From positions 1-37,192 of the forward strand of contig CAMONN010000005.1 of assembly GCA_946620645.1 (NCBI GenBank): a stretch of 37,192 nt of DNA, written 5' to 3'. This stretch comes from an uncultured Clostridia bacterium. Lineage in GTDB: Bacteria > Bacillota > Clostridia > Oscillospirales > Oscillospiraceae. Of this stretch, positions 17,820 through 20,668 are shown one piece after another. A program made the translations under genes and the position numbers. Position 1 is the first letter of the stretch. Every line of letters begins with the position of its first letter. Below the pieces are notes generated by a model. That model had not been told where the DNA came from, did not search any database, and saw only the letters and a program-made list of their open reading frames with translations.

Positions 17820-17846
17820 TCAGTTTTCTGTTAATTCGATAATTCG

Positions 17847-17900
17847 AAAAGCGGCTGTCTCACGGAAGGACCTGTTCTTCTGCGGGACAGCTTCTTTTTT
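17847..17900 (+). terminator. Terminator after mscL
   Basis: An 8-bp core stem (17854-17861 with 17884-17891), extended by A/T pairing between the upstream AAAA and the downstream T run, with a 22-base loop and six T at 17895-17900. It isolates dnaA from the upstream transcript. Confidence 0.75.
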
Positions 17901-17954
17901 GTTCCGTTTTTCTCTCTTTCCCTTCTATAATATATTATATCTTATCTGTTTTCC

Positions 17955-17983
17955 TTGCATGTCCAGGTAAAATCTGTTATAAT
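17955..17983 (+). promoter_or_regulatory. dnaA promoter
   Basis: TTGCAT (-35, 17955-17960) and a perfect TATAAT (-10, 17978-17983) are 17 bases apart, with an extended -10 TGT. This is almost the same design as the soj promoter. An AT palindrome (TATAATATATTATA, 17926-17939) lies just upstream. No convincing DnaA box is seen near it, so autoregulation is not evident. Confidence 0.85.
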
Positions 17984-18029
17984 AGGTCGCTCAGGCGTTT
18001 TTCATTTTTTTATGAAAGAGGGTCTACCC

Positions 18030-19343
18030 ATGAATTCTCTGGAGGATATCTGGAATGTGCTGATGCAGAGTCTTTCCGAAAAGCTGACTCCCACGGCCCT
18101 TTCCACCTGGTTCAGTGACTGCCGGCCTGTGGAACTGGAGGAATACCGTCTGGTTATTCGCACATCAACCCAGTTTAAAAAGAAAATTATCAGTGAACGC
18201 TTTGCCTCCATCATCAAGGACTCGCTTTCAGAGCTTTTTTCCTCCGATTTTGAAATTCTGATTCTGGTGGGAGAAGAGGATTATCTGAAAGAAGAGGTTG
18301 GGGATGACGGTCCCCTTCCCGAGATGGCAGGGTACACCTTTGACAATTTCATTGTCGGCAATTCCAATAAGTTCGCTCACGCCGCCGCCAAGGCCGTTGC
18401 CGAAAATCCCGGGAAAAATTACAATCCTCTCTTCATCTTCGGAAATTCCGGGCTCGGAAAAACCCACCTGCTGATGGCGATTGGTCATGATATTCATGAA
18501 AGCTATCCGAAAAAGAACATATCCTACATCAAGGGTGATGACTTTACCAACGAAATGGTGAAAGCCATCCGCGAAGGCAAAACCCTGGAATTTCGGGCAA
18601 AATACAGGAACGTTGACCTGTTTCTGGTAGACGATATTCAGTTTATTGCCGGAAAGCAGAGTACTCAGGAGGAGTTTTTCCACACTTTTAACTCGATCTA
18701 TGAGGCCGGAAATCAGATCGTAATCACCTCCGACCGTCCTCCGAAGGAAATGTCCCTGCTGGATGACCGTCTCCGGACCCGCTTTGAAGGCGGATTAATG
18801 GCGGATATTGCCCCGCCGGATCTTGAAACCAGAATGGCCATTGCCCGAAACAAGGCCACCCGTCTCGGCCTTCTGCTTCCGGATGAGATTATAGAATATA
18901 TCGCCTCAAAAATTACCGCCAATGTCCGTCAGCTGGAGGGCGTTATCAAAAGGCTGACCGCCTATCGGGAAATCCTGAATGATGAAATTACCCGCGCTTC
19001 CGTTGACCGGGCCATTGACGATGTCACCAGAAACGGAACGGATATTCCGAATCCGGATAACATCATCCGTGAAACCGCAAAGTATTATTCCTTGACTCCG
19101 GAGGATTTAAAAGGGAACAACCGTTCCAGGGACACCGCCATGGCGCGGCACATTGCCATTTACCTGATGCGCCAGCTGACCAATCTCTCTCTCAACGATA
19201 TCGGCAAAGAACTTGGAAGAAATCACACAACGGCTCTCAACTCCATTCGCCGCATTGAGGACATGATGAGAAATGATTCCGAAATGACCGTAATTATCCG
19301 GGATATTACCTCAAATATAACGACGAGTTCCGGTACCGCCTGA
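18030..19343 (+). CDS. dnaA: Chromosomal replication initiator protein DnaA
   Basis: A 437-residue AAA+ initiator. Domain I covers about 1-80, a short linker follows, and the ATPase shows Walker A GNSGLGKTH (138-146), Walker B FLVDDIQF (198-205), sensor 1 ITSDRPPKE (232-240) and the RLRTRF arginine finger (247-252). The DNA-binding domain IV (about 345-437) keeps the minor-groove arginine equivalent to E. coli R399 (R373). The recognition helix, however, reads RNHTTALNS (397-405) where nearly all DnaA proteins have RDHTTV: the base-contacting Asp is Asn398. The ATG at 18030 follows AGAGGG; upstream in-frame starts at 17955 and 18012 lack ribosome binding sites or lie in the promoter. Confidence 0.97.
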   Translation: MNSLEDIWNVLMQSLSEKLTPTALSTWFSDCRPVELEEYRLVIRTSTQFKKKIISERFASIIKDSLSELFSSDFEILILVGEEDYLKEEVGDDGPLPEMAGYTFDNFIVGNSNKFAHAAAKAVAENPGKNYNPLFIFGNSGLGKTHLLMAIGHDIHESYPKKNISYIKGDDFTNEMVKAIREGKTLEFRAKYRNVDLFLVDDIQFIAGKQSTQEEFFHTFNSIYEAGNQIVITSDRPPKEMSLLDDRLRTRFEGGLMADIAPPDLETRMAIARNKATRLGLLLPDEIIEYIASKITANVRQLEGVIKRLTAYREILNDEITRASVDRAIDDVTRNGTDIPNPDNIIRETAKYYSLTPEDLKGNNRSRDTAMARHIAIYLMRQLTNLSLNDIGKELGRNHTTALNSIRRIEDMMRNDSEMTVIIRDITSNITTSSGTA

Positions 19344-19404
19344 GTTTCTGACATTTTTCAGTCGAAATGTTGATTTTCAATTGTTCATTTTTTCTGATCT
19401 TTAC

Positions 19405-19489
19405 TTTTCAACAGTTTCGACAGTTTTATGAACAAAGTTTTCGACAGAAAAAAACAAGTGTTTTCCTGATCGAATCAGGGTTTTCGACA
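19405..19489 (+). repeat. Candidate non-canonical DnaA boxes (TTTTCGACA type)
   Basis: Four same-strand 9-mers: TTTTCAACA (19405-19413), GTTTCGACA (19414-19422, directly abutting), TTTTCGACA (19438-19446) and TTTTCGACA (19481-19489). They differ from the standard DnaA box TTATCCACA at positions 3 and 6. Their clustering between dnaA and dnaN, and the placement of the last copy next to trio-like triplets, suggest that they are the initiator sites. Binding is inferred. Confidence 0.65.
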
Positions 19490-19499
19490 ATTATTTTCC

Positions 19500-19545
19500 C
19501 TACTACTATTCATACTAAGAATTAATATATATCTATCTTTAATGA
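19500..19545. other. DnaA-trio-like triplets and AT-rich unwinding element
   Basis: From 19500 the plus strand reads CTA CTA CTA TTC ATA CTA, that is 3'-GAT GAT GAT AAG TAT GAT-5' on the other strand, fitting the DnaA-trio pattern. It follows the last 9-mer box after 10 bases of spacer. The next 28 bases are almost all A/T and lead into the dnaN ribosome binding site. Confidence 0.65.
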
Positions 19546-19555
19546 GGTGATTATT

Positions 19556-20668
19556 TTGAAGATTCTCTGTGAAAAACTTCTGCTTCAGACAGCCGTTGTC
19601 AACGTCTCACGCGCTGCAGCAAATAAAAGTCCCGTTCCCGCCATGGAGGGTATTCTTTTTGAAGCGAAGGATTCTCTGAAGCTCACGGCGTTTGACAGTA
19701 AAATCGGAATCTACACCTATCTTGACGCGGAAATTTCCGAACAGGGCGGTGTTGTTCTGCCGGCGAGATTCCTTGTAGACCTGGTAAGGAGACTTCCGGA
19801 CGGAATGGTCTGCATTGAGTCCAACGAAGAGGATGCTGTAAACATCCGCTGCGGAAAAACGGAATTTCATCTGATCGGCCTTTCGGCGGAAACTTTCCCC
19901 GAGCTGAATGTGGTAAATCCGAAGCAGACCTTCCGGATTCCGGAGGGGATTCTCAAGAGCATGATTAATCAGACCGTTTTTGCCGTGTCAACTTCGGACA
20001 GCAGGCCCCTTTATATGGGTGTGCTTTTTGAGGTAGGAGCGGAAGACCTGACCATGGTGGCCATTGACGGTTACCGTATGGCAAAGCGGAATGAGGAAAT
20101 CAACAGCACCGGTATGGAGCCCTGCAGCTTCATTATTCCCGGAACTTCGCTGAATGAGGTGGAAAGACTCTGCTCGGCGGAAGGAAAAGATGACGTTGTT
20201 ATTTCTCTCGGGGACAAGCACGCTTCCTTTTCCGTCGGAAGCACGGTTTTGATTACAAGACGCCTGGAAGGCGAGTTTATGAACTACAGAAAGTCCATTC
20301 CCACCTCCTTCCGTTATGAGATCGTTGTGGAGCGGGAAGAGATGATGCGGGTGATTGACCGTGTTTCTCTCGTAATCAAGGAAAAGCAGAACTCTCCCAT
20401 TAAAATGATTGTCGGGGACGGAACCCTCCAGTTTTTCTGCACAACCTCCTTCGGTCATTCCGAAGATTTCTGCCTCTGTGAGGGAAGCGGGGAAGGAATG
20501 AAAATCGGCTTTAATGACCGCTATTTTATGGACGCCATGAAAGCGGCCAATGAAGAAAAACTTCGCATTTCCATGAATACGCCCACGTCTCCGATTATTA
20601 TTGAAGCGGCGGAAGGCGGAAAATATCTCTATATGGTATTGCCGGTAAGGCTGCGGGAAGGCGATTAA
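19556..20668 (+). CDS. dnaN: DNA polymerase III beta subunit (sliding clamp)
   Basis: A 370-residue protein of three repeated clamp domains (about 1-125, 126-250, 251-370) that dimerises into a ring round DNA and tethers polymerase III. It begins MKILCEKLLLQTAV and ends YMVLPVRL, typical of the family's C-terminal partner-binding region. The start is TTG at 19556: GAGGTGA lies 5 bases upstream and the N-terminus then matches the family. A GTG at 19547 would lie inside that ribosome binding site. yaaA follows one base after the stop, starting the packed dnaN-yaaA-recF-remB-gyrB-gyrA array. Confidence 0.96.
   Translation: MKILCEKLLLQTAVVNVSRAAANKSPVPAMEGILFEAKDSLKLTAFDSKIGIYTYLDAEISEQGGVVLPARFLVDLVRRLPDGMVCIESNEEDAVNIRCGKTEFHLIGLSAETFPELNVVNPKQTFRIPEGILKSMINQTVFAVSTSDSRPLYMGVLFEVGAEDLTMVAIDGYRMAKRNEEINSTGMEPCSFIIPGTSLNEVERLCSAEGKDDVVISLGDKHASFSVGSTVLITRRLEGEFMNYRKSIPTSFRYEIVVEREEMMRVIDRVSLVIKEKQNSPIKMIVGDGTLQFFCTTSFGHSEDFCLCEGSGEGMKIGFNDRYFMDAMKAANEEKLRISMNTPTSPIIIEAAEGGKYLYMVLPVRLREGD

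Follow-up and report, generated by a model that had tools for sequence, protein, structure and literature searches.

Few protein-DNA pairs of bacteria are as conserved as the initiator DnaA and its target, the DnaA box. The stretch of DNA analyzed here (37,192 nucleotides; henceforth the window), which comes from an uncultured bacterium of the family Oscillospiraceae (class Clostridia), raises the question of whether both partners have been altered together in one lineage, and which part of the protein changed along with the DNA. The place of interest is a 212-bp gap (19344..19555, plus strand) between dnaA (18030..19343, plus strand; 437 aa) and dnaN (19556..20668, plus strand; TTG start). 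The product of the former contains the Pfam domains PF00308, PF08299 and PF11638 and scores 478.3 bits against NCBIfam TIGR00362, above the curated cut-off of 343.9, while that of the latter scores 273.2 bits against TIGR00663. Family models were used to confirm DnaA and DnaN; the gene order around them is, by names otherwise recognized by eye, presumably parA-parB-serS-mscL-dnaA-dnaN-recF-gyrB-gyrA.

Four exact box sites lie on the plus strand of the gap: TTTTCAACA at 19405..19413, with A at position 6 of the 9-mer (A6), GTTTCGACA at 19414..19422 (G6), which abuts it, and two copies of TTTTCGACA (G6), at 19438..19446 and 19481..19489, the latter being proximal to the DnaA-trios. Each has G or A at position 6, and C is absent there from all four; at the other positions of the canonical TTWTNCACA, three sites read TTTTC-ACA and the one at 19414 has G at position 1. 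The trio array (CTA CTA CTA TTC ATA CTA; 19500..19517, plus strand) follows the last box after a spacer of 10 bp, within the 16-bp limit of PMC8287927; statements on published work, here and below, draw on excerpts of the cited papers. Between the abutting pair, of a kind also present in L057, L059 and L060, and the next box there is a weaker box-like 9-mer, TTATGAACA (19426..19434, plus strand), with G at position 5; it is conserved, and TTTTGAACA occupies the same place in L057-L060. When the gap was shuffled 5000 times with its dinucleotide content preserved, no shuffle reached its two copies of TTTTCGACA (shuffle mean 0.016) or its four matches to [TG]TTTC[AG]ACA (shuffle mean 0.052), and the window outside the gap holds no TTTTCGACA and a single [TG]TTTC[AG]ACA. 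With a weight matrix built from eight other members of the clade described below, the window being left out, the four sites rank first, second, joint third and 14th among all 9-mers of the window. TTATCCACA does not occur anywhere in its 37 kb, and no box was matched immediately upstream of dnaA (17820-18029). A copy of TTTTCCACA at 18676 was discarded as a box, being inside the dnaA coding sequence; a like match recurs in relatives.

The gap thus displays the basal-unwinding (BUS) layout of DnaA boxes, short spacer and DnaA-trios. From this, the gene setting, the box cluster beyond what shuffles yield and a minimum of the cumulative GC skew in the 18001-20000 bin (computed over the window), we infer that it very probably serves as a chromosomal oriC that combines boxes with trios. 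A preliminary description of this locus had correctly read the two TTTTCGACA, the one TTTTCAACA, the one GTTTCGACA and the lack of TTATCCACA in the gap, had recognized in the CTA-type triplets a fit to the DnaA-trio arrangement, and had named the skew minimum as a check, which bears it out. Its statement that all sites are on one strand holds for the four clear ones; besides these there is a degenerate ATTTCGACT on the minus strand (19360..19368), near the matching place of which L059 has a minus-strand TTTTCGACA. There is little to back the further claim that standard origin-finding tools would miss such an origin: TTTTCGACA differs from TTWTNCACA by one mismatch and from TTATCCACA by two, which is within published mismatch limits (PMC7561715, PMC8287927), so that such searches should still find it.

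The altered boxes are not confined to the window. By a genus-wide pattern search in which the residue after GRNHTT could be Ala, Thr or Ser, a GRNHTT[A/T] DnaA is present in nine of 102 same-genus genomes, and all nine loci consist of this DnaA followed by an origin with G6/A6 boxes. In a tree of 103 distinct long DnaAs, from which the recognition region had been removed, the nine form one clade (support 1.00), with L335, L022, L341, L342 and L024 as its neighbors (0.96). The trio-proximal box is TTTTCGACA in seven of them, TTTTCGACC in L061 and TTTTCAACA in L002, and the trio arrays are alike elsewhere in the clade and in the genus. The first 210 bases after dnaA in the nine origins contain 40 box-like 9-mers (one mismatch allowed outside positions 5-7; a palindromic site in L059 is counted twice), of which 25 are G6, 14 A6, one T6 and none C6; counting over 260 bases gives 25, 20, one and none, respectively, and the exact TTWTCNACA boxes comprise 16 G6 and 10 A6. 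A search for TTTTCGACA, a spacer and CTAYKA matched 19 of the 102 genomes; seven matches lie beside dnaA, all of them in the clade, and the other 12 are at loci with no detectable dnaA. Five clade loci share downstream sequence with named records: L057, L058 and L059 with Oscillospiraceae metagenome-assembled genomes (MAGs) from goat or roe-deer abomasum, L061 with another Oscillospiraceae MAG and L060 with a Ruminococcaceae MAG. Their DnaAs are 76-85% identical to that of the window, and the closest named relatives of the window bacterium are mostly ruminant-gut MAGs.

On the protein side, the window DnaA reads RNHTTALNS, and its Asn398 (codon 19221-19223, plus strand), which is common to most of the genus, falls in the alignment where E. 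coli DnaA (1J1V) has the Asp of its GRDHTT, as had been read before; the number 433 of this Asp was counted by hand. It belongs to residues 393-402 (KELGRNHTTA; codons 19206..19235, plus strand), which comprise the HTH turn and the start of the recognition helix. The base-contact set given for E. coli DnaA consists of R399, P423, R432, D433, H434, T435, L438 and H439 (PMC5043019). Equivalents of R399, R432, H434, T435 and L438, and also of T436, are kept in the window DnaA, which differs at those of P423, D433, V437 and H439 (numbers counted by hand); those of P423, D433 and H439 are each Asn in an alignment read by eye, and the contact set is accordingly retained only in part. We compared the nine clade members with 85 of the 94 others, taking those above 540 bits to the window; 57 of these are from genomes (L157 being of another genus) and 28 are named records without genus assignment. 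Across the whole DnaA, 19 alignment columns are diagnostic of the clade, 14 of them outside residues 393-402 and five within: Lys393, Leu395, a one-residue deletion after 395, Thr400 and Ala402 (Thr in L061). The counterpart of Thr400 in E. coli is Thr435, one of the base-contacting residues listed above, and 64 of the 85 relatives have Ala at this position. A shorter turn as such is nothing unusual, since the DnaA of M. tuberculosis (3pvp), which reads GRDHTT, has a turn of the same length.

The remainder of the genus provides the background for these changes. Strict same-genus counts cover, from the 102 genomes, the nine clade origins and 70 others, 23 genomes being left out. Residue 398 is Asn in 68 of the 70 and Asp in two, and the trio-proximal box of the 68 Asn origins is C6 in 55, A6 in nine, unclassified in four and G6 in none; it could not be classified in five of all 70. 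The looser set of 85 close relatives gives C6 in 67, A6 in 13, G6 in none and no class in five. The box-like 9-mers of the 70 origins (n = 351) divide into 233 C6, 99 A6, 4 G6 and 15 T6, and their exact boxes into 104 C6, 54 A6 and no G6. T at box position 3, or the TTTT start, is equally common in relatives. Hence a nine-species clade has a purine, mostly G, at box position 6 where most relatives keep C, and the co-occurrence of this lineage-specific G6/A6 9-mer with a changed recognition region is supported in all nine genomes. On the tree, G6 appears together with the new turn in one transition, the change in the recognition region and that in the boxes coinciding on a single branch. The earlier proposal that box and reader changed together stands to this extent, whereas its choice of Asn398 as the matching change does not: with Asn in 68 of the 70 other origins, most of them C6, this residue is a background feature of the genus. 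Where a variant box had been expected alongside Asn, C6 persists in 55 of the 64 Asn origins that lie outside the clade and could be classified.

A few members of the comparison set stand apart. One of the two Asp cases among the 70 other origins, L044 (G020:C33:12441-13730), is placed in the same genus and has as its sole DnaA match an odd protein that is 40% identical and reads RDHATV; dnaN was not found in the stretch examined, and the contig is perhaps contaminating. L354 (G696) has an Asp DnaA (GGRDHTTV) nested among Asn relatives, apparently a reversion, and its exact boxes are TTTTCCACA and TTTTCAACA. L064, on a 4351-base contig of a Treponema MAG (JAFNQK010000065.1) that is perhaps mis-binned, encodes an Asn DnaA 63% identical to that of the window and has a trio-proximal TTTTCAACA.

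At the level of the order, we examined 224 distinct origins for exact TTNTCNACA boxes. Those with Asp DnaAs have C in 188, A in 67, G in three and T in two boxes, and those with Asn DnaAs have C in 121, A in 86, G in 17 and T in two. His is a third state at the position aligned to E. coli 433, found in 24 of the 224 origins, with mostly C6 boxes (C 34, A 7, G 1). On a DnaA/DnaN tree of 192 of these origins (32 without an exact C, A or G box were dropped), dependent evolution of Asn and purine-6 is preferred over independent evolution (LR 12.68, chi-square p = 0.013), a value matched or exceeded in two of 99 simulations under independence (99 of 100 were kept). Removal of six clade origins, among which L061 (no exact box), L288 and L293 are not included, leaves LR 9.82 and p = 0.044 by chi-square only, with no simulations. 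Individual cases vary: outside the close relatives, Asn DnaAs in L046, L049, L110, L245 and L254 lean to A6 or G6, and L048, L051, L109, L225, L229 and L260 are mixed or poor. Across the class, the Asn pattern was found at 22 places in 21 of 391 genomes, with a detectable DnaA at five; among these, L273 is a duplicate of L051, and the 450 bases downstream of L271 lack an exact TTWTCNACA box. Of the class-wide Asn types, L285 has A6 only. A G6 box with CTACTA occurs at 29 loci in 26 of the 391 genomes, and dnaA is detectable only at the window's own. The order-wide link between Asn and purine-6 is probably real, if loose; the sequences behind the tree are short.

This link bears on the simplest account of the clade, namely that the replacement of Asp by Asn at residue 398 is by itself enough to turn the box into TTTTCGACA. 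The association on the 192-origin tree speaks for it, as do the trio-proximal TTTTCGACA of L046 and ATTTCGACA of L110, both of which go with Asn. However, a narrower model, with dependence of the box on the residue but not the reverse, gives no significant improvement (LR 4.55, p = 0.10), and according to the fitted rates it is in origins whose boxes are purine-rich beforehand that Asn arises. Moreover, nothing remains of an association between Asn and the presence of any G6 box when the clade is left out (LR 4.46, p = 0.35), L280 and L281, two of the class-wide Asn types, have both C6 and A6, and the same-genus Asn relatives with TTTTCCACA contradict Asn398 as the sole determinant; we regard this account as very unlikely. 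Still less credible is the proposal that the 9-mers are not DnaA sites and that the origin lies elsewhere. While the draft genome is only 57.5% complete, which leaves some room for it, the box-trio layout is conserved in nine species and matches that of the C6 relatives, and the skew minimum of the window is here. The preliminary description had considered a rival TTATCCACA cluster elsewhere, and no tight one exists among the 76 TTWTCNACA matches in this draft. A second origin with TTATCCACA was likewise discarded, the nearest pair, on contig C24, being about 2.2 kb apart.

A more serious contender holds that the DnaA of the group tolerates any of C, A and G at position 6, the boxes of the clade having drifted to purines with the preference of the protein unchanged. 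It draws on the commonness of A6, which is found with Asp-type DnaAs in 67 of 260 exact boxes and, among the other members of the genus, in 99 of 351 box-like 9-mers and in the trio-proximal box of nine of the 64 classified Asn origins, on the mixture of A6 and G6 within single clade origins, and on the listing of TTATCAACA as a box in the experimentally studied linear-chromosome origin of Cyanothece (PMC4674748). Yet drift alone would not readily take C6 to none of 40 in the clade against 233 of 351 elsewhere in the genus. G6 is otherwise rare, both among relatives (four of 351) and with Asp-type DnaAs (three of 260 exact boxes), in whose origins the same 9-mers, if present, were to count against co-evolution by the preliminary description, and the recognition region changed on that branch as well. 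We consider this possible, if on the doubtful side. At the other extreme, a true specificity switch would have the clade DnaA prefer TTTTCGACA and bind TTATCCACA and TTTTCCACA poorly, having passed through a purine-tolerant ancestor with Asn398 and then acquired the shortened turn with Thr400 and Ala402; if true, the initiator and origin would be a pair orthogonal to that of close relatives, but we hold it to be somewhat unlikely. As the clade represents one evolutionary event, box and reader may have changed independently, and a single event does not tell co-evolution and drift apart. On balance, we favor the explanation that the gap is a BUS-type oriC whose boxes and reader changed along one branch, by which the need for C6 would have been lost.

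Under this favored explanation, domain IV of DnaA would bind the TTTTCRACA boxes and, by analogy with B. subtilis (PMC8287927), the box at 19481 would anchor a filament of DnaA, which may extend over the CTA trios and open the duplex there as proposed from that organism. Against a background of Asn398, one residue was lost from the HTH turn, with Thr400 and Ala or Thr402 appearing at the start of the recognition helix; the remodeled turn and helix start could move or re-equip the helix over base pairs 6-7 and thereby relieve the need for C6. We prefer the idea that the shorter turn would shift the helix. As sole determinant, the short turn is weakened by L077, which combines it with Asn and yet keeps C6, and by the turn of the same length in M. 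tuberculosis DnaA, for which a C6 consensus, YWRTCCACA, is given (PMC5043019). Asn398 looks permissive rather than decisive. Asp433 and Leu438 have been assigned to box position 7, not 6 (PMC8235120), so that a direct contact of Asn398 with G6 would be speculative. Published data indicate that C6 is normally important for canonical DnaA, since the DnaA of H. pylori is reported to leave TTATAGACA unbound, a box that combines G6 with A5 (PMC5043019). G6, in turn, is no requirement in the clade, as L002 keeps the clade recognition sequence with an A6 trio-proximal box.

Lineage-specific DnaA boxes as such are already known from Epsilonproteobacteria (PMC5043019) and cyanobacteria (PMC4674748). 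The former, with their TTCAC core, are the closest precedent that we have seen, and the authors suggest that this core originated in an altered beginning of the recognition helix of DnaA. There, however, T is invariant at position 5 and most boxes retain C6, whereas the window clade changes position 6; DMS footprints exist for the epsilonproteobacterial boxes, while those of the clade are described from sequence only. Cyanobacterial TTTTCCACA boxes usually have T at position 3, which makes the T3 part of our finding ordinary, and they too keep C6. The BUS-type oriC of Bacillus subtilis (DnaA-boxes #6/#7 and DnaA-trios; PMC8287927) resembles the window in its box, short spacer, CTA-type trios and location in the dnaA-dnaN gap. 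Its core is CCACA instead of CGACA or CAACA, and it has a tandem pair where the window has one clear, predicted trio-proximal box. Clostridioides difficile likewise has boxes beside dnaA and dnaN with possible trios, but its DnaA retains the contact residues Asp, His and Thr, and TTWTNCACA is what the authors expect (PMC7561715). Among the matches listed from openly licensed literature, we found no case in which closely related bacteria differ at position 6 and the recognition region has changed to match, and a search for TTTTCGACA gave no DnaA title among the matches listed.

The replacement of C by G at position 6 between close relatives offers a natural before-and-after pair. It lets one ask by what route an initiator that the cell cannot do without comes to use another target while the cell survives, and which residues of the recognition helix set the code. 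It also serves as a warning that the box consensus of model species is not to be transferred unchanged to the uncultured Clostridia of the gut.
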